From NCBI RefSeq assembly GCF_003287455.1, contig NZ_PRLC01000001.1, forward strand, positions 1-64,000: a stretch of 64,000 nucleotides of DNA, written 5' to 3'. The notes below the pieces were generated by a model that made no database searches, was not told where the DNA came from, and saw nothing but the letters and a program-made list of their open reading frames with translations. Of this stretch, positions 19,396 through 63,949 are shown piece by piece (position 1 is the stretch's first letter; each line of letters opens with the position of its first letter). The position numbers and the translations under genes are program-made. The stretch comes from Faecalibacterium hattorii (GTDB taxonomy: Bacteria; Bacillota; Clostridia; Oscillospirales; Ruminococcaceae).

Positions 19396-20226
19396 ATGGC
19401 AAAACATGCAGTCCATCGTAAAAAGAAGAGAAGCCACAGCGCTTTCTCGTTCCGTCACGCACTGGTATTATGCCTTTGCGTCATCGCCGTTTGTTTCGGC
19501 CTTTATTTGTGCCATGAAGCCTTTACCATCGGGCAGAGGAATCCCTCCACTGAATCGGAAGATGACTTCCGCCCCACGATCGGTGAGCCGCCGTATCGCA
19601 TCGCGGTAGACGCCGGGCACGGCGGCAGTGATCCGGGTGCAAGGGGAGTCGTAGAGGAAAAAGAGATGACCGCCGCCACTGCAGAAGCGCTTTTGGCATG
19701 GCTGGAGCAGGACCCGAACTTCATCCCGCTCCGGACCCGCGAAAATTATGACATAACCGCCAAACCCTCCGAGCGAGCCGCCGCCGCCAACGCGCTTTCG
19801 CCAGATCTGCTGCTTTCCATCCATGGCAATTCCGCGCCGGAGGGCTCGACGGCCTCCGGGTTTGAATGCTATCCGACCGTTCCGGGCAGGACGTGGCACC
19901 GGGAGAGTTATTACTTTGCCAAACAACTGGCCAGCGCCATGCGGTCCGCAGGGGCCAGTCTGCGGGGGCGCGGGGGAATCCGGTACATATATTATATCGG
20001 GGAGACCAAGCAATTGGTCGAAAGCAGCCACACCGAAGTGCGCGAAGAGCGAAGCTTTACGATTCTGGAAGATGTGAATTGTCCCGCCGTTCTGGCAGAA
20101 CAGTGCTTCGTGACCAGCGAAGCCGACGTTGCACAGTTTGGCAGCGAGGACGGCTGCCAGCGGACAGCCCGCGCGTACTACGAAGCGATCTGTGCATATT
20201 TTGAGACAACACCGCTGCCGGAATAG
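19396..20226 (+). CDS. N-acetylmuramoyl-L-alanine amidase (Amidase_3)
   Basis: A 276-residue membrane-anchored or secreted peptidoglycan amidase. A very basic N-terminus and one helix (about 19-38) are followed by a zinc amidase domain: AVDAGHGGSD, the glutamate in VVEEKE, SIHGNS and the catalytic glutamate near LAEQCF. It has no SPOR or cell-wall-binding repeats. ATG 19396 has AGGGA eight bases ahead; GTG 19390 would be too close. CwlD-like roles in spore cortex are possible given spoIIIA nearby, but general wall turnover is equally likely. Confidence 0.85.
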   Translation: MAKHAVHRKKKRSHSAFSFRHALVLCLCVIAVCFGLYLCHEAFTIGQRNPSTESEDDFRPTIGEPPYRIAVDAGHGGSDPGARGVVEEKEMTAATAEALLAWLEQDPNFIPLRTRENYDITAKPSERAAAANALSPDLLLSIHGNSAPEGSTASGFECYPTVPGRTWHRESYYFAKQLASAMRSAGASLRGRGGIRYIYYIGETKQLVESSHTEVREERSFTILEDVNCPAVLAEQCFVTSEADVAQFGSEDGCQRTARAYYEAICAYFETTPLPE

Positions 20227-50939: not shown

Positions 50940-52706
50940 TTAAGCAGCCCACTCAACAGCCATGGCGCTGAACGGGGTGGTCAGTGCACCGGAGCAGCGG
51001 GTCTCGATCAGGTACTTCTGGGCGTTGAAGTCGATGTCGAAGTCATCGAACATGGAAACAGCGCCTCCCTTGTCTGCGCCCACGGTGTAGTCGGCGAGGT
51101 TCACGATCAGACAGACCAGTTCACCGCCCTTGGCACCCTTGCGGCCCTCCATCTCGGGGATGGTCATGATCTTAGAAACACGCAACTTGCGGGCCAGCGC
51201 GGCCTCGTCAGCATACAGCGTACGGCCGACGCCGTCCTCCAGCAGGAGCATCTCGGTCAGTGCGTCCTCGGTAGTGAACAGGGTGGGAGTGCCGGAGCCA
51301 CGATATTCCTTGCGGGAACGCAGGATCTGCTTGATCAGGGCCTTGTACTTGTCCTCCACGGTGGTCAGGCCGGTGGTCTTGCACTGGACCTTGATGGTAA
51401 ACAGGTCTGCGTCGTTGAACACAGGACGGATGCAGTTCTCGTCGATCTTGTCCTCAGAGGCAGCCAGACGGCCGTCGCCCAGCAGGTATGCCAGAGCCAG
51501 CTCACGGTTCAGCTTCAGGCGCATCTCCTGCTTCAGCCATGCCACCACGTCAAAGCTGTTGATGTCGATCACGTCGTCACGGTCCAGCTTCTGCTTCTTG
51601 TACACGGTGGTGGGGCTGGTGGAGCGGCGCAGCAGGCCAAAGACCTCTTCCTTCTTGAAGTTGCCCTTGATGTAACCCTTAGCGCGGGCATCGTCCTCGG
51701 TCAGGTCAGCAAACATGCTCTTGAACCGGCTGAAAGGAATGTGGTGCACAGCGCCCATGACCACGCTCACCCAGTCGTCGGGCTTGTCGATGATCCGGGG
51801 CGTGGTGTCCAGCAGGTGATCCTCGGGGAACAGCCAGTTGATGTTGTCGATGCTGTGGGTCAGCTCGTCACTGTCCATACCGGCATCCTCAAAGGCAGCC
51901 TTCATGGTGCCGTGGCTCTTTGCGGTCTTGACCACATTGTCGATTTCTTCCATGCTGTGCTTCAGCACGGTTGCGGTGGTATCCTTGTCAAAAACATTCT
52001 GCTTCACGGTTTCATCCTCCTCACCGTTATCTTCGCCGCCGTCCGCTTTCTCAAGGGCCAAGCCCACGAATGCGTGGCAGCATTCCTTCTGCTCGTCGGT
52101 CATGCTGTTGTAGACCTCTTTGAGCGTCTTGCCTTCGTTCTGTTTTCCGTCCGCCATTTTGGCTTCCTCCTGTTTATGTTCGCCGTCATCCGCGCTGTGG
52201 GTCAGCTCTTCCAGCGGGTTGCCGTCCGGGTCCATCCCGTGCTCAAGGCTCAGCGCCGTGTCCGAGATGATGAACGCCTCCCCGCCCTCATAGTCCTCGT
52301 CGGCCGAGTGCTTGATGACTTCGTCGATGATCGCGCCGGGGTTGCAGCCCGCCAGTACGAGGCTCACCTCCTGAACGAAGCCGTGCTTCACGGTCTTCCC
52401 CACCTTCTGCAAGCCGTTGGCGTAGATGGAAAAAGCGTTCAGGTCACCGCTTTCCACGCACTTCCGCGCCGTGCGGCCGGTGTCCGTGTCGTTGAACTTG
52501 GCATAGCAGTACACGCCGCCGGGGCGGTTTTCCAGCAGACAGTGGCCGATCACGTTGCCGATGTCGCTGTGGTCGTGGTTGTACACCATGGGCACCACCT
52601 TGCCGTCGCACTCTTTGAATGCGTCCTGCGCAATGGTCAGCCCGTCGTAGCAGCGGGTGTTCGCTTTGGTCGCCCAGCCGCTGCAATCGTAGTCAAAATT
52701 AACCAT
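50940..52706 (-). CDS. Prohead protease-major capsid protein fusion
   Basis: A 588-residue fusion. Residues 1 to about 135 are an HK97-type (S78/U35) prohead protease with catalytic histidine in NHDHSD and serine in QEVSLVLAG. An acidic, low-complexity link (about 140-245) plays the delta/scaffold part. About 280-588 are the HK97-fold capsid (FSRFKSMFADL, GSGTPTLFTTEDAL, MFDDFDIDFNAQKY). An internal ATG at 52157 with AGGAGG eight bases ahead would give a scaffold-capsid product without protease. ATG 52706 lies in a TCAAAATGG motif. Confidence 0.85.
   Translation of the reverse strand: MVNFDYDCSGWATKANTRCYDGLTIAQDAFKECDGKVVPMVYNHDHSDIGNVIGHCLLENRPGGVYCYAKFNDTDTGRTARKCVESGDLNAFSIYANGLQKVGKTVKHGFVQEVSLVLAGCNPGAIIDEVIKHSADEDYEGGEAFIISDTALSLEHGMDPDGNPLEELTHSADDGEHKQEEAKMADGKQNEGKTLKEVYNSMTDEQKECCHAFVGLALEKADGGEDNGEEDETVKQNVFDKDTTATVLKHSMEEIDNVVKTAKSHGTMKAAFEDAGMDSDELTHSIDNINWLFPEDHLLDTTPRIIDKPDDWVSVVMGAVHHIPFSRFKSMFADLTEDDARAKGYIKGNFKKEEVFGLLRRSTSPTTVYKKQKLDRDDVIDINSFDVVAWLKQEMRLKLNRELALAYLLGDGRLAASEDKIDENCIRPVFNDADLFTIKVQCKTTGLTTVEDKYKALIKQILRSRKEYRGSGTPTLFTTEDALTEMLLLEDGVGRTLYADEAALARKLRVSKIMTIPEMEGRKGAKGGELVCLIVNLADYTVGADKGGAVSMFDDFDIDFNAQKYLIETRCSGALTTPFSAMAVEWAA
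52157..52170 (-). promoter_or_regulatory. Internal ribosome site and start for capsid
   Basis: Minus-strand AGGAGGAAGCCAAAATG (AGGAGG, eight-base spacer, ATG at 52157) inside the protease-capsid gene, in frame, at the start of the delta-like region (MADGKQNEG). Better than most true starts here. Confidence 0.6.
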
Positions 52707-53955
52707 TTTGATTTGCAATACTCCTTTCCACGGCTTCTTTTCCAGCCGTAATTGTTTTCTGCACCCCGTCTTCCTCGTTCGGCCGACTGATGTTGCTGTT
52801 CTCCAGTCGGTCGGCCTTCGGGTCCTTCGAGGGCTTCATGCCGATCACCTGTCGGAACTCGTTCGAGGTCATGATCTCATTGCGGGTGAACTTGTCTGCC
52901 ATCTCTGAAACCATGGAGACCGGTGCCAGCTTGAATGGGTCGCGGAAATACATCACGGATTCGCCTTTGGCCCGTGCTTCCTCGGTCAGGAACTTCCGCT
53001 TCAGCTCGTCTACAACAGCCGCCACAAGGGGTTCGATGGTCCGGTTCTCGTAGTTGGTCATCACAGTATCGTTGGCAGTGCCGTTCATGATGTCCGGTGT
53101 GATACCCAGCTGACTGTATGCCATGTTCGTCAGGTATTCCACGGTCTTCAGAAGGTTGTTTTCGAGGCTGCGATTCAACTGCGTGACATGCTCGGTGCCG
53201 TCGATGTAGGCGATGCCATATTTGGAGCCGGAAAGCTGGCGTTCCACCTCGGCGCGGCGCTCATCGGCCCGCTGTTTCTGCTGTTCGCTCCGCACCACGT
53301 AAGGCAGTTGGATGATCATGTCGAGCTTTCCGCTGCCCACTTGCTCGTCGATGACGTCCATCAGGTTCAGCTTCCGGATCAGCCGCTGGATGGTTCCATT
53401 CGGCTCATTCATCACGGCGTAGAACGGGTTTTCAACGATGGCCACCTGACTTTTCGGCAGGGTGATCTCCTCCCGCTGTCCGGTTCGGTCGTTGTACACT
53501 TCCAGCCGCACGTCGTCGGGGTACCATTCCTTGATCTTGCCTACCCGCATGGACTCGATCTTGGCTTCACCCATCTCCGGGTCTATGTCGATGTCCACCG
53601 GCACCAGCCCCACCACGCCCTCGTCGAGGACGGAAAGGAACAGGTCGTACCGCAAGGCGCGCCCAGTCTGGTCCTTGTTGCCGGATAAATTCAGGCAAGA
53701 ATTAAGGCCCGAATCAACGACCTCATCAAAGCGGTTGTTTTCATCGAGCCTTACGTGATTGATGGTGATGCTGGCCGCATCCATCGCAATGCGGGTGTAG
53801 ATGGCGGTCAGGATGGTCCGGTCATTTCCCCGGTTCAGCCGCACCCGGTCTGGCCGGTAGCTGTATCCTCCGTCATAGTAACTTCTTCCGGGAGGGTCCC
53901 GGTTCGTAAACGCATTCCACGCCCTCTTCAGGCGGGAACCGATACTCTGTGCCAT
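52699..53955 (-). CDS. Portal protein
   Basis: A 418-residue HK97-family portal: the early YYDGGYSYRPDRVRL, then AIYTRIAMDAASI, IVENPFYAVMN, and the long helix region with ITPDIMNGTANDTVM. It forms the dodecameric DNA gate. ATG 53955 has GGAGG seven bases ahead, and that GGAGG lies in a TCAAAATGG copy. Its 3' end overlaps the capsid start by 8 bp. Confidence 0.9.
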   Translation of the reverse strand: MAQSIGSRLKRAWNAFTNRDPPGRSYYDGGYSYRPDRVRLNRGNDRTILTAIYTRIAMDAASITINHVRLDENNRFDEVVDSGLNSCLNLSGNKDQTGRALRYDLFLSVLDEGVVGLVPVDIDIDPEMGEAKIESMRVGKIKEWYPDDVRLEVYNDRTGQREEITLPKSQVAIVENPFYAVMNEPNGTIQRLIRKLNLMDVIDEQVGSGKLDMIIQLPYVVRSEQQKQRADERRAEVERQLSGSKYGIAYIDGTEHVTQLNRSLENNLLKTVEYLTNMAYSQLGITPDIMNGTANDTVMTNYENRTIEPLVAAVVDELKRKFLTEEARAKGESVMYFRDPFKLAPVSMVSEMADKFTRNEIMTSNEFRQVIGMKPSKDPKADRLENSNISRPNEEDGVQKTITAGKEAVERSIANQNG

Positions 53956-54035: not shown

Positions 54036-54605
54036 CTAGTCCTTCTTGTCGTCGTCTTTCTTCTGCTGTTGCTGACCACCGGCGCTGCCGCTTACGATTG
54101 CGTTCGCAAGCTCCGGATTCTTCAGTTCCTTACTGATGAACTGCTTTGCGCTGTAACTCATCGCGCCGGAAACCGCCTTGGTCAGAAACTGCTTCGAGGC
54201 ATCTTGCATCACACTCTTTGCAAAGCTCTGCCCGCTGTATACGTCCTTCCGCAGCTGCTTCACGTCCTTTTGGAGCTGGAGCCGCTCTTTCTCGGCCTTC
54301 AGTTCCTTGTTCGGATCATCGGCGCGGATGTTCGTCTGCCCCTGAAGATCACGGTACTGCTTCTCCATCTGGAGCCGGTTGATGCGGCTTCGCAGCTCCT
54401 CGTCGGAGTAATCCTCTGCATTCCGGCCAGAGCGTTTCGGTGCATATTCCACCTTCGGTTCATCTTCTGAACCGGCGTTCCCATCTCCGGCATAGTGCTT
54501 TTTGCCTGCGGTCGTCAGGGTGCCGTCCTTGTTCTGGTACCGCCGCACGCCCCACTTCATGCCCTTGATGCCCCAATGGTATAGCTCGTCACTGTATACT
54601 CGCAT
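54036..54605 (-). CDS. DUF7211-type phage protein
   Basis: A 189-residue protein with the N-terminal signature LYHWGIKGMKWGVRRYQ, then a charged coiled coil and a C-terminal stretch rich in Q, K and D. The signature occurs in many Firmicutes phage proteins near portal and minor head genes. It may be a minor virion or ejected protein; function unproven. A spacer repeat separates it from portal. Confidence 0.7.
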   Translation of the reverse strand: MRVYSDELYHWGIKGMKWGVRRYQNKDGTLTTAGKKHYAGDGNAGSEDEPKVEYAPKRSGRNAEDYSDEELRSRINRLQMEKQYRDLQGQTNIRADDPNKELKAEKERLQLQKDVKQLRKDVYSGQSFAKSVMQDASKQFLTKAVSGAMSYSAKQFISKELKNPELANAIVSGSAGGQQQQKKDDDKKD

Positions 54606-59938: not shown

Positions 59939-60199
59939 TTACGCCGCAGTGCTTTCGTCTTTGATATCGATCTTGAGCTTTTTGTAGATGTTCAACGGAT
60001 CATTTGCCACGATTTTATCGATTGCTCGCTCAATTTCATAGGCATTCTCATTGTCTGTGAACTGAGAGGACGTCTCTGCCAGCCGCATCAACAGACCAGA
60101 AGAGTTGTAGCCATGATCCGCATCATATTGATACCACTGTTCGAACTGCTCGCACGGATCGTACGGGTTATCGGTCGTGGTCAGAAAGCATCGAACCAT
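59939..60199 (-). CDS. Conserved small phage protein, unknown
   Basis: An 86-residue acidic protein: MVRCFLTTTDNPYDPCEQF, a tyrosine-rich WYQYDADHGYN and a helical end. The layout resembles small proteins found near packaging genes in Firmicutes phages. AGAGG is nine bases ahead of the ATG. Follows the DFDGD protein gene by 26 bp and probably shares its transcript. Confidence 0.6.
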   Translation of the reverse strand: MVRCFLTTTDNPYDPCEQFEQWYQYDADHGYNSSGLLMRLAETSSQFTDNENAYEIERAIDKIVANDPLNIYKKLKIDIKDESTAA

Positions 60200-60225: not shown

Positions 60226-63000
60226 TTACTTGTTGAGTGCATCGTAAATCGTGGATTTAGGCACGCCGCATGCTTTTGCGATTTCTTCGTACGTGTAGCC
60301 GCCGCGAAGCATTGCTTTTGCTTTGTTCACTTTTGCAGAGGACAAAGCAGTTGTAGTTTTCGGCATTGCACGTTTTACGATTTCATCAGAATCAGACGAA
60401 TTCAGGAATTTCGTCAACATATTGTCCGAAATTGCGCCAGCTTGAACAGCTTCCCATTCACGATCCGTGAACGTGACCTTGGACTTACGCCCACTGGCAC
60501 CCACAGAGTCACGGGCACGCTGCATCTCGACAGAAGAGATTTTTTTAATTACCTTTTTATCTTCCGAAATATGGGGATCAAGCCCCTGTTCCTGAATCTT
60601 TGCCTTAATAACCGCATTTGCAATCAGCATCGCCTTGCGCTCCTTAGGTTTGTTGGCAATCATGTTATTGTACTTCTCTTTCAGAGAGGCAACCTCAGGC
60701 GCATAGGTCTTGGCGGCAGAAGGACTGTATTCAAGCCCCTTCATATTAACAGCCTCTTTGCGGGCCTGATTGGCCATCGCCTTCAACTTATTGGAGAAGT
60801 CCGCATACAGATTCTCCTGCACCGTACCAGACGACAGCGTGCGTGCATCCTTCGTCTCCGAGATCAAACTGACGGTATCCTCAGCGAGGCGCTCCTTCCC
60901 TGTCTTGGGGTCGGTGAAGGTGCGGCCGCTCTCCTTATAGATGAGCTCACCAGTATCCTTATCAACACGTACGCTGCCACGGCGCTCCGGTACACGAACG
61001 GTCTGCTTACGGCGAGACAACAGGGTGGATGCGCCACCATAGTGCGTGCCGCCCTCTTCGTCCACACGGATCTGCCACTTTTGTTTCAGTTCGGGGATGC
61101 CATTCTCACGCTCAGACCTCTTGTAGTCCAGCTTGTGCTTTTCGGCATCGATGACCACCATGGAGTGCTTGACAGCACGTGCAAGCTCATCTTCATCCGC
61201 GCCGCGAAGGGTCATGTCCGTGATGAGGTTCGAGATTACACCCATTTCGCGCTGCTTCTCTTCCTTCTTCATGAGACGCACATTGTTCGGATTGCCTTCC
61301 GGAACTGCATACGCAGTCTTCGGGTCGAAGCCTTCCAACGCTTTCAGCGCATGGGTGGACTTGATGTTGACCTTGTCAGAGACAGGAATCGCCATAACGG
61401 TGTCGCCGTCGAAGTCTGCACCAGACAGACGCTCAGCTACCTTAGCATTGATACCGATTGCATCCTGAATCGCACCGAGATTCCGCTTGCCACTCAAGTT
61501 CTTGTTGTTGACCGTGACCATGGGAATTTCAAAGGTGCCCGCATGCGGATAACGAATCAATGCAAGATGGGTTCCGTTCTCATAAGTCGGGCAGTAAGCT
61601 TCTGTTTCCTTGATATTGTTGAGAGGCAGGATAACCTTGGTGGACTGACCGGGAAACGCCGATGCTTTCAGGGTCATCGATGTACCTTCGCAGGTGTCTG
61701 CAAAATCGTTGAGTAGCTTCTTCTTGACTGTCGGATTATCATAGTGCATAATCTCGTCATACTGCGCCTGATAATCTGCAACGGTGAGCTTCAACTGATT
61801 CTCGATCAGCTTCTTCGGCTGCTTGGACAGGAACTGCGAAGAGACATTCTTCGACATCGTATCCCAGTCGCCTTCCTCTTTCAGTTTGTTGATAGGAGAA
61901 AGATGCTCTTTGCCGTCAGCACCGATGTAAGTGCTCTGACCGTTCGCCTTAATGGCTGCACCAAACGGGTTGTCCGGGTCTGCCTTGGCTTCCTTCAGAA
62001 CCTTCATCTTAGGTGTGCCGGAGTGCTTGTTCGTGTTGAACATGATGTCCACACCGTCCGGAAGATCATCCGAATATACAGCCATGCCCTTCAGGTAATG
62101 ATCACCATCTACAAGGATGCGAACCTGCGCATAATGGCTCTTACCAAGGTCGAGGTCAGGCACGCCGCGGCGAATCTCCATGACGCCGTCTTTGTCCAAA
62201 CCGCCTTCGTCACCATAGCGAATGGCAACGCGGCTGGAATCCAGACTTGTAGGGCGCTGGAGCTTCGTAAAGGTATCACCACCATCATCCGTGTGATAGT
62301 CGCCCAGTGAATCGATCTGTTCCTGATGTTGGTAGGCATACTTCTGATCGAACTCTGGTTTTGCAAGCACCATAATATTGGTCTGCTGACGATTGTTTGT
62401 CGGCTGCTTAATGCCTATGCCGTAACGTTTATAGCCGTATTCTGCCTCTAACGTATATACTGCATCCTGAAGTTCAGTATCAGTTACGCCCAACACAAAG
62501 TTTGCGCCCTCCGAAACATCAATCATTCCCTTTTTATCGACTTCTTTTTTCAGAGTTTCGGCGATGTTTTTTGCACGCTGCGCTTTTTTGTCTGCATTTC
62601 CGGCATATTTGGATCGAACGCTCGATTCGCTCATACCGAGTTGGTTCGCAATCTCCGTCCAACCGAGCCCTTTGTTGTCTTTCAGGTCCTTGATCTGCTC
62701 GTATTCAGACTGCTTCCGCAAACTGATTGCTTTACTTCTCGCAACTCGAAACTCAGTAGGGCTCAGCTGATACTCCTTGGGGAGCGTGTCGTTTATAGCA
62801 TTGATGATGTCCTTTTCGGACAGCCCTTTTTTCTTCAGCGTCTCAATACGAGACAGAAAGTCACCGGAATGCTGATACGGATTGTCGCCGGAACCCCAAG
62901 GATAACGGCCAGAGTGGCGCTTGGTACCGTAGTGCTCCAGAACACTATCGTTGGAAGGAATGCCCAGATAGGCGTGGATATCTTTCTCAATCGCGTTCAT
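60226..63000 (-). CDS. Putative phage single-polypeptide RNA polymerase (DFDGD protein)
   Basis: A 924-residue protein with the hallmark GADFDGDTVMAIP at 527-539. This is the metal-binding DxDGD loop of the double-psi beta-barrel in RNA polymerase beta-prime, YonO-like phage polymerases and QDE-1-like enzymes. Around it, a short RYP segment before GTFEI, then INAKVAERL leading into the motif, parallel the R-x-P ... HPLVC-x-x-FNADFDGD region of beta-prime. A helix-turn-helix lies at about 100-135 (GWTEIANQLGMSESSV) and a resolvase-type one at 895-922 (YTYEEIAKACGVPKSTIY). The N-terminus has a RYPWGSG segment. Its ATG overlaps the nuclease stop as ATGA. The polymerase call rests on one motif and its flanks. 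Confidence 0.7.
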   Translation of the reverse strand: MNAIEKDIHAYLGIPSNDSVLEHYGTKRHSGRYPWGSGDNPYQHSGDFLSRIETLKKKGLSEKDIINAINDTLPKEYQLSPTEFRVARSKAISLRKQSEYEQIKDLKDNKGLGWTEIANQLGMSESSVRSKYAGNADKKAQRAKNIAETLKKEVDKKGMIDVSEGANFVLGVTDTELQDAVYTLEAEYGYKRYGIGIKQPTNNRQQTNIMVLAKPEFDQKYAYQHQEQIDSLGDYHTDDGGDTFTKLQRPTSLDSSRVAIRYGDEGGLDKDGVMEIRRGVPDLDLGKSHYAQVRILVDGDHYLKGMAVYSDDLPDGVDIMFNTNKHSGTPKMKVLKEAKADPDNPFGAAIKANGQSTYIGADGKEHLSPINKLKEEGDWDTMSKNVSSQFLSKQPKKLIENQLKLTVADYQAQYDEIMHYDNPTVKKKLLNDFADTCEGTSMTLKASAFPGQSTKVILPLNNIKETEAYCPTYENGTHLALIRYPHAGTFEIPMVTVNNKNLSGKRNLGAIQDAIGINAKVAERLSGADFDGDTVMAIPVSDKVNIKSTHALKALEGFDPKTAYAVPEGNPNNVRLMKKEEKQREMGVISNLITDMTLRGADEDELARAVKHSMVVIDAEKHKLDYKRSERENGIPELKQKWQIRVDEEGGTHYGGASTLLSRRKQTVRVPERRGSVRVDKDTGELIYKESGRTFTDPKTGKERLAEDTVSLISETKDARTLSSGTVQENLYADFSNKLKAMANQARKEAVNMKGLEYSPSAAKTYAPEVASLKEKYNNMIANKPKERKAMLIANAVIKAKIQEQGLDPHISEDKKVIKKISSVEMQRARDSVGASGRKSKVTFTDREWEAVQAGAISDNMLTKFLNSSDSDEIVKRAMPKTTTALSSAKVNKAKAMLRGGYTYEEIAKACGVPKSTIYDALNK

Positions 63001-63563
63001 GCTACTGCTACTGCTCCTAACTTCAAATCTGCAATCACTTTGTCGAACTCACGAATCTTCTCGATGATGGGATCAATGTCCTCGCAGGTGGGATTCTCGA
63101 TCCAAATATCATCGTTCTGGTAGATTCGCGTCTCGAACTGAATATCTTTCGGATTGATGTGATACTCCATGCAGAACAGAGCAGCATAAATAAAGAGCTG
63201 CTCCATGTGTGCAGGAACAGCTCCGGTTTTAAGATCATGAATGCGAAGGAGATTATCGTTGAATGCAATTGCGTCTGCGGTGCCGAAGCAGTTCTCGCTA
63301 TAATAGAGAACCATCTCCGGGTCCATGCGGAAACCGATTGCATCGTTAACGTATGCGTTCAGAGTTTTCTTACTCTTGGGCAGCTTCTGCCGGAGAGTAA
63401 TACACTCTGCGGCAAAAGCATGAAGGCGCGTTCCCTTCTCTTTTGCCTGAAAGTTCATGTACGCATCGGCCAGACGCTGTGCGTCATAATTGAGCCAATG
63501 GTACTTGCTGGCTCCGAGGAAGGCATGCTGCCCCGTGAGCCTCGAATGATCGTTCCATTGCAT
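62997..63563 (-). CDS. PD-(D/E)XK exonuclease, RecB/Cas4-like
   Basis: A 188-residue nuclease: FGTADAIAFNDNLLRIHDLKTG contains the metal-binding aspartates and the lysine (GTADxI ... D-x-K), and QLFIYAALF with YHINP follows as in RecB-type nucleases. AAGGAGG is nine bases ahead of the ATG. It overlaps the preceding nuclease gene by 80 bp and the polymerase-like gene by 4 bp. Confidence 0.85.
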   Translation of the reverse strand: MQWNDHSRLTGQHAFLGASKYHWLNYDAQRLADAYMNFQAKEKGTRLHAFAAECITLRQKLPKSKKTLNAYVNDAIGFRMDPEMVLYYSENCFGTADAIAFNDNLLRIHDLKTGAVPAHMEQLFIYAALFCMEYHINPKDIQFETRIYQNDDIWIENPTCEDIDPIIEKIREFDKVIADLKLGAVAVA

Positions 63564-63825
63564 TTAGAACTTCCTCCTTATTTTCGGGATAGATGAAAGC
63601 TGCAAAGCTCATACTGTTGAAATCCTGAACATAATAGTCCTGATTCGGTCGATGAGGCGCATCCGCTGACCGTTTGCCTTCCAACGCGCCCCAAGTGTGG
63701 CCATACAAAACCAAGAGGTCAGGATGCCCCTGCACCTCGTTCGGATCCAGATGGACCACCTTGCAGCCGGGAAAGCGCTCTTTCAGTTCTTTCACCAATC
63801 TCGTTTTGAATTTGTTTTCAAGCAT
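63484..63825 (-). CDS. VRR-NUC-type endonuclease
   Basis: A 113-residue protein with a PD-(D/E)XK core: EVQGHPDLLVLYG and LEGKRS. This matches small phage VRR-NUC/Holliday-junction-resolvase-like nucleases. ATG 63825 has GGAGG seven bases ahead. Its C-terminal end overlaps the next nuclease start by 80 bp. Confidence 0.8.
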   Translation of the reverse strand: MLENKFKTRLVKELKERFPGCKVVHLDPNEVQGHPDLLVLYGHTWGALEGKRSADAPHRPNQDYYVQDFNSMSFAAFIYPENKEEVLNAMERSFEAHGAACLPRSQQVPLAQL

Positions 63826-63846
63826 GCTACAACCTCCAAAATGAAA

Positions 63847-63875
63847 GGAATAGTGCGTAAGACGCATTCTATTCC
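63847..63875. promoter_or_regulatory. Operator-like dyad upstream of the nuclease genes
   Basis: An imperfect 29-bp palindrome: ggaatagtgcgt and acgcattctattcc around a short centre. It lies directly ahead of the nuclease-polymerase operon and could be a repressor site or an mRNA hairpin. Confidence 0.35.
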
Positions 63876-63949
63876 CCCCATAAAAGGGGATGTTTTTATC
63901 GCGGGGGTTTTTGTGAGAAAGCGTGAATTTTTGTGAATTTTGGACAAAG

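Follow-up and report, generated by a model that had tools for sequence, protein, structure and literature searches.

A prophage gene on the Faecalibacterium hattorii contig NZ_PRLC01000001.1 (assembly GCF_003287455.1; here contig C13) encodes, by its modelled fold, a single-chain two-barrel RNA polymerase. It lies near the end of the window, by which we mean the first 64,000 nucleotides of this contig. We consider it fairly probable that the protein is a DNA-dependent enzyme which is loaded into the phage head by an N-terminal tag, injected with the DNA, and starts transcription at a phage-specific element. The tag, a virion label on one homologue and the element together favour such a head-packaged, injected polymerase, and we think that the tag and the promoter-like element matter most.

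Polymerase fold and sequence features

The open reading frame (ORF) starts with ATG at position 63,000 and runs to 60,226 on the minus strand over 924 residues, and stops interrupt the plus-strand reading across the same span. A preliminary description, made from the sequence alone and mentioning neither the N-terminal tag nor the promoter-like element, had reported the motif GADFDGDTVMAIP at residues 527-539, where we indeed find it. S526, G527, A528, D529, F530, D531, G532 and D533 are invariant in alignments of 13 and 66 sequences, and the motif is therefore far from chance. Upstream of the metal loop R483, P485 and H486 are invariant in the same two alignments, as are K304 and K325 among the 66 sequences, candidates for the two basic residues of the second barrel. 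Besides the window protein, the larger alignment includes 65 sequences from the 84 IMG/VR relatives whose ORFs were extracted (near-duplicate, truncated and extended ones omitted). The helix-turn-helix (HTH) modules described near both ends were recovered by Pfam as HTH_23 (residues 898-922, E 1.8e-7) and HTH_IclR (residues 109-129, E 4.7e-5). Matches to Pfam are mainly of this HTH type and fall around residues 98-150 and 885-924; among the matches listed for the 924-residue protein (25 of 26 families) there is no polymerase domain.

The profile of PHROG 4291 ('RNA-dependent RNA polymerase') matches the protein over its full length (1207 bits, residues 17-923). Among 50,697 phage records 251 have a match, 249 of them at no less than 80% coverage; GenBank and RefSeq copies are counted alike, and MT835616 matches through the tag only. 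The hosts are Arthrobacter (95), Gordonia (55), Streptomyces (54), Lactococcus (13) and others. In IMG/VR, a relative was recognised in at least 519 of the 599 candidate stretches. The closest named one, 87% identical, belongs to Faecalibacterium phage FP_oengus and is annotated 'putative RNA polymerase'.

The structure model finds its best structural matches in QDE-1 and plant RDR2 (Foldseek E 4.6e-8), and the phage polymerases P74 gp62 and 'P32 gp64' match it at lower Z. VIA-align matches to QDE-1, RDR2 and P74 gp62 cover about model residues 251-756, given as residue ranges only. Two marks of a two-barrel polymerase were thus found, namely a DxDGD loop with D529, D531 and D533 invariant and a two-barrel-type fold with its connecting region, and the protein would be catalytically active. 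The earlier interpretation as a distant polymerase is partly supported; kinship to YonO of SPbeta, with which the protein had been compared, is barely detectable. An hhalign comparison with the YonO family reached a probability of 5-9% (E 0.004-0.008) around the DxDGD region only; the family alignment comprised YonO and 33 of 78 YonO-type loci, with ORFs above 750 residues trimmed to the first ATG and some N-ends lost. The YonO family was considered as a possible home for the polymerase. Searches of Protein Data Bank (PDB) chains with the protein sequence and with a profile gave no convincing polymerase match. The profile search had one weak match (E 0.44) to 8h2n, titled 'tape tail measure protein', which we take to be the virion polymerase of P23-45.

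Given that QDE-1 and RDR2 are the best structural matches, and that both PHROG 4291 and RefSeq use the name, the protein might be a true RNA-dependent RNA polymerase acting on RNA templates as QDE-1 does. We regard this as highly improbable, since the relatives belong to tailed phages with DNA genomes, the enzyme itself carries HTH regions and is found together with promoter-like DNA elements, and the phage polymerases P74 gp62 and 'P32 gp64' match the model too. The name has probably spread from fold matches.

An N-terminal tag shared with head-block proteins

Near its N-terminus the polymerase carries a tag whose consensus is [LI]xHYGxxRxSGRYPWGSG (Table 1). Eight residues of the tag (H23, G25, S30, G31, R32, Y33, G36 and G38) show no variation in either alignment. 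The predicted local distance difference test score (pLDDT) of the model is below 50 at residues 17-31 and 33-45, so that the tag, mostly disordered though highly conserved, behaves as a linear signal. It is present in 82 of the 84 IMG/VR relatives, the exceptions (L074 and L085 in our numbering of loci) being ORFs at a contig edge, and position -2 from the tag His is L, I or F in all 82. A hidden Markov model of the motif was built on the 77 of these 82 tags that have the commonest length.

Tags of the polymerase type also open non-polymerase proteins. L018 and L190 each have a pair of them, placed on either side of TerL, L192 has two between HNH and TerL, and L064 has a single one immediately ahead of TerL, whose tag and that of the L064 polymerase have the same rare insertion (HYGVGHLDGGHSGRY in the polymerase and HYGVGHKNGGHSGRY in the TerL neighbour). 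The 13 tag-bearing proteins tested have isoelectric points (pI) of 8.9-10.5.

A related form, HYGxxGMKWG with [LIVM]xH before it, is that of the Pfam family DUF7211 (PF23847). This family exceeds its cut-off in 12 of the 15 whole phage records searched, most often in Arthrobacter phage Qui (up to nine matches), and in none of SPbeta, MT835616 and the fragment contig89. In nine annotated records (1706, FP_oengus, Camille, Qui, Petito, Rima, AddiRose, Circum and Rosa) all matches above the cut-off precede the portal gene, around TerL, and in the IMG/VR loci most DUF7211-type proteins flank TerL. Inside polymerase genes the family matches weakly only (E 0.006 and 0.007, in 2 of the 15 records); the first 53 residues of the window polymerase give no Pfam match at E up to 5 and do not reach the DUF7211 cut-off. 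Judged by its sequence, the polymerase tag is a variant of the DUF7211 tag and not a member of the Pfam family. We propose that the DUF7211 protein of the window is a co-cargo.

Further tag arrangements were observed. Matches of DUF7211 type occur within genes annotated 'RNA ligase' and acetyltransferase, and in one locus (L089:2113-2800) a 2H phosphoesterase domain (2_5_RNA_ligase2) is fused to the N-terminus of the polymerase, ahead of the tag. The tag-like RRSGRYPWGTG precedes the N-terminal domain of a dATP/dGTP diphosphohydrolase at L047:1916-2908. Two proteins opened by DUF7211-type tags (L027:2921 and L053:9399) have further, possibly enzyme-like regions and are possible injected effectors.

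Virion label and candidate cleavage sites

In the GenBank record of Lactococcus phage 1706 (EU081845) the polymerase homologue, orf75, was labelled 'structural protein' by the depositors, and so was the DUF7211-bearing orf7. RefSeq NC_010576.1 has changed the orf75 label of EU081845.1 to 'RNA-dependent RNA polymerase'. Labels of structural type are found on 11 of the 76 coding sequences, one of them reading 'major structural protein'. Besides orf75, they include orf62 and orf71 outside the head/tail block, which suggests that virion proteomics lies behind the labels. The label of orf75 presumably goes back to mass spectrometry.

A head-maturation protease fused to the major capsid protein is typical of these polymerase phages. 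Nine such fusions (that of Qui is cut off and was excluded) have repeated [LIV]xH[SAG] sites in the linker, the last site lying directly before the capsid start in six (such as 'ITNIDxLFPDAK') and a few residues ahead of it in the other three. Linker His residues have L, I, V, M or F at position -2 in 57 of 72 cases against 15 expected from composition, an enrichment that a binomial value overstates because the linker rows are homologous and not independent; outside the linker of the same nine proteins, a hydrophobic residue stands there at 38 of 83 His. LxH is thus probably the cleavage site of the capsid-fused protease, and the polymerase would be cut at the LxH of its tag. A processed virion polymerase subunit is known from phage 201phi2-1, according to the part of PMC5694885 consulted.

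A promoter-like element

A two-block element of the form CGC[GA]..AAA..CA..n5..TATAAT/TTTATG stands directly 5' of the operon that includes the polymerase gene (Table 1). The first 100 kb of contig C13 hold 12 copies, all on the minus strand, which is the coding strand of the prophage; 11 of them lie beyond the window (C13:69604-88401). When the whole 2.79 Mb host genome was searched with CGCGAWAAN12TTATG, exactly the same 12 copies were returned, all in the prophage, and the reversed pattern gave no match in this genome. FP_oengus has intergenic two-block repeats as well: at fixed spacing there are 11 copies, every one of them on the coding strand, and a looser word raises the count to 12.

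When 1706, Arthrobacter phage Circum and Gordonia phage Petito were searched de novo for repeated words, aligned counterparts were recovered, CGC[GA]...TTACA-N5-TATAAT or TATAGT, the CGC block being not evident in 1706. The best word counts, set against the maximum of three Markov simulations, were 12 versus 5 in FP_oengus, 11 versus 7 in 1706, 7 versus 5 in Circum and 10 versus 0 in Petito (no simulated word reached five). The Circum count is modest by itself. For Camille and Rosa the top words, at 7 occurrences each, stayed close to the simulated values of up to 6 and 5. Across 13 polymerase phages the pattern TTACAN5TATART has 60 forward matches and 1 reverse match, all of them within 8 of the phages; SPbeta gave 0 forward and 1 reverse, and the reversed pattern 3 in all.

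Similar elements precede the VRR gene, the first of the polymerase operon, in many IMG/VR loci. A loose form was found no more than 260 bases before it in 52 of 77 loci, versus 8 of 77 on the other strand. Fifty Markov simulations of this search gave a mean of 8.5 and at most 14, and about 8 of the 52 matches may therefore be due to chance (those of L049, L050, L080 and L084 look so). Two stricter patterns, their gap mis-set, matched 9 and 7 of the 77 loci forward and none in reverse. Most matches before the VRR gene are of the TTTTATG form, and some (such as those in L070, L075, L087, L091, L092 and L096) are of the TATAATAGA form, which, as far as its letters go, links the two element types. 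Over 89 loci CGCG[AT]AN12-14T[TA]T[AG][AT] has 48 forward and 5 reverse matches. The polymerase is encoded on 14 of 17 contigs that had been selected solely by the element; these 17 contigs, at least 45 kb long, not obtained via the polymerase and taken from the matches listed, may be interrelated.

The convincing copies in FP_oengus, 1706, Circum and Petito all lie outside the head/tail block, many of them between the integrase or tail/lysis genes and the replication genes, and in FP_oengus, Circum and Petito one stands shortly before the polymerase operon. Here 'early' is assigned by gene position only, and Circum row 45110 and Petito row 47909 were judged unconvincing. This distribution bears on the possibility that the polymerase is a non-virion enzyme like YonO, made early to transcribe later genes, in which case the tag would serve another use and the 1706 label would reflect carry-over of an abundant enzyme. 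Such a role would suit a temperate phage whose polymerase gene sits just ahead of the late block and whose relatives include a few loci with tag-type proteins beyond the head block, and the late genes of SPbeta are transcribed by YonO according to the consulted part of PMC5467207. We nevertheless judge it unlikely, because the convincing element copies occupy the early-type region and the stretch ahead of the polymerase operon, none of them preceding late genes, and because the tag, besides being highly conserved, turns up again on head-block proteins. Moreover, the tag was not found in YonO or in the longest ORF of the 78 YonO-type loci (uncut ORFs, 60 of 78 with 750 residues or more).

The element might alternatively be read by the RNA polymerase of the host, acting by itself or with the help of a phage activator, the phage enzyme using other promoters. 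The downstream box of 1706, Circum and Petito (TATAAT or TATAGT) is like the -10 box of sigma-70 promoters, and in 3 of 9 Circum rows TTGACC stands 20 bases upstream of it. The aligned copies, however, show no prominent -35 box at normal spacing, the TTTATG form of Faecalibacterium is without A2 and T6 of the -10 box, and the remaining host genome contains no exact match. Scans for sigma-70 promoters stayed at chance level (11 matches versus 9.9 expected, and 25 versus 22.8). In both the prophage and FP_oengus one copy directly adjoins a tRNA-like gene at its 5' end (tentative, as ARAGORN assigns no identity); this suggests a transcription start at the G of TATG and leaves no room for sigma-70 spacing. 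As the polymerase is also present in most contigs picked by the element alone, we hold reading by the host enzyme to be unlikely.

Several observations weigh against a head-carried polymerase that reads the element. The virion location depends on one GenBank label. The prophage encodes an integrase, so that on induction there is no injected enzyme and the first synthesis of the polymerase would need the host polymerase. A tag-type protein is encoded upstream of the polymerase in L023, L027 and L053, and a tag-like one in L047, so that the tag also occurs beyond the head block. The polymerase is absent from 3 of the 17 element-picked contigs, Camille and Rosa have one loose element match each, a TTACAN5TATART match of P078 (at 12030) is perhaps in the tail block, and the de novo search recognised no comparable element in MT835495. 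To these come the resemblance of the TATAAT form to the -10 box, by which host sigma-70 could read it, and the TTGACC of the Circum rows. Presence of the element before early genes would in itself be no proof that the phage polymerase reads it.

Proposed mechanism

In the scheme that we favour, the polymerase would be loaded into the phage head through its N-terminal tag, which also appears, in the same or a related form, on small basic proteins encoded mainly in the head block. Within the tag, the LxH step would probably be cut by the capsid-fused protease. The polymerase would enter the cell together with the phage DNA and start transcription, probably through its HTH regions, at the element before the early genes and before its own operon, from which it would then be remade and packaged again.

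A broader form of this scheme seems to us evenly balanced. It would extend to a large set of tailed phages that infect Bacillota and Actinomycetota, in which a general cargo tag ([LI]xHYG..SGRYPWGSG or HYGxxGMKWG), trimmed by the protease and also borne by other basic or enzyme-bearing proteins, brings a polymerase into the head, and in which early transcription from the phages' own early promoters would be independent of the host. Genomes of the group are mostly about 43-77 kb, with Qui and Paella at 114 kb.

Genomic neighbourhood

The preliminary description had placed the gene in a pre-late block, and by position this is right: the order is VRR-like nuclease, exonuclease, polymerase, small ORF, HNH, TerL, portal and protease-capsid, all on the minus strand. 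Further downstream the HNH gene is conserved in 22 of 23 loci and TerL in 16 of 19 (all synteny counts refer to loci with enough flank). The small acidic protein of PHROG 4303 has a pI of 4.1-4.6 in nine phages and is a possible partner of the polymerase. Along contig C13 the prophage extends to an integrase at about 89.3-90.5 kb.

Three DUF6353 paralogues were noted in the early region of the prophage (L187:16835-17821, L187:18950-19732 and L188:273-1145), and there are near-identical hairpin terminators (L187:18481-18508 and 19762-19789).

Table 1. Features of the window around the polymerase gene
Feature	Positions	Strand	Basis or conservation
Head-maturation protease fused to major capsid protein; repeated [LIV]xH[SAG] in linker, the last directly before the capsid domain	50940..52718	minus	
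DUF7211 protein (YHWGIKGMKWGVRRYQ), pI 9.3, between TerL and portal, with related tag	54036..54605	minus	Pfam
Small acidic protein, 86 residues, pI 4.4, PHROG 4303	59939..60199	minus	After polymerase in 47/50 loci
Predicted single-chain two-barrel RNA polymerase, 924 residues, 102.7 kDa, pI 8.7	60226..63000	minus	
C-terminal HTH region, about residues 885-924	60229..60348	minus	Pfam; helices in structure model
Putative catalytic metal loop DFDGD, residues 529-533	61402..61416	minus	Alignments
N-terminal HTH region, about residues 98-132	62605..62709	minus	Pfam; helices in structure model
N-terminal tag LEHYGTKRHSGRYPWGSGDNPYQ, residues 21-43; candidate signal for capsid cargo and candidate site of the maturation protease	62872..62940	minus	Alignments, model
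Cas4/PDDEXK-type exonuclease, upstream of polymerase	62997..63563	minus	Kept in 77/77 loci
VRR-NUC-like endonuclease, first gene in polymerase operon	63484..63867	minus	Kept in 69/70 loci
Promoter-like element copy (CGCGATAAAAACATCCCCTTTTATG), directly 5' of VRR-exonuclease-polymerase genes	63879..63903	minus	

Relation to known systems and significance

Virion RNA polymerases are known from few groups, namely N4, phiKZ-like and crAss-like phages and P23-45. The protein family described here is already on record, and so are virion two-barrel polymerases as such. P23-45 has a virion polymerase, gp96, and a non-virion one, gp64 (PMC10770324, in part); here, by contrast, the polymerase stands as a protein of its own that has HTH regions and bears a short tag common to head-block proteins. 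YonO of SPbeta is likewise a prophage-encoded single-chain two-barrel RNA polymerase of about 100 kDa, but its sequence relation is barely detectable, it has neither the tag nor a Pfam HTH match, and it reads late genes, no virion role being mentioned (PMC5467207, as far as the consulted sections go). The yonO gene itself is split in two by an inserted stretch in the SPbeta-like phages MT601272, OL580764 and ON107264, with a GIY-YIG nuclease gene there in ON107264, an intron- or intein-like arrangement. The crAss-like phi14:2 gp66 (6VR4), virion-packaged according to its PDB title, is a weak Foldseek match (E 0.034) and differs in size, with 2,166 residues in the solved chain. In phiKZ-like phages the polymerase is packaged in the head, and the beta protein of 201phi2-1 is cut by the prohead protease with removal of an N-terminal propeptide at TFE-275; these enzymes differ in being multi-subunit, in belonging to jumbo phages and in their cleavage motif (all from the sections of PMC5694885 at hand). 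Pfam lists DUF7211 as of unknown function; its HYGxxGMKWG tag is on head-block proteins of the same phages in which the polymerase has the SGRYPWGSG form. Among the open-licence PMC papers that our searches listed we found no description of this polymerase clade as virion polymerases, of the tag, of a link between tag and capsid protease, or of the promoter family, and prior work elsewhere is possible.

If the proposed mechanism is true, a large and easily grown set of phages with virion polymerases would be added, from Lactococcus, Arthrobacter, Gordonia and Streptomyces. A function would be suggested for DUF7211 and for a polymerase now filed as 'HTH protein' or 'RNA-dependent RNA polymerase', and the system would offer a lead to a compact single-chain polymerase that uses a short promoter. 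In these phages one short tag would mark the head cargo, one protease motif would trim it, and one promoter family would define the target genes.

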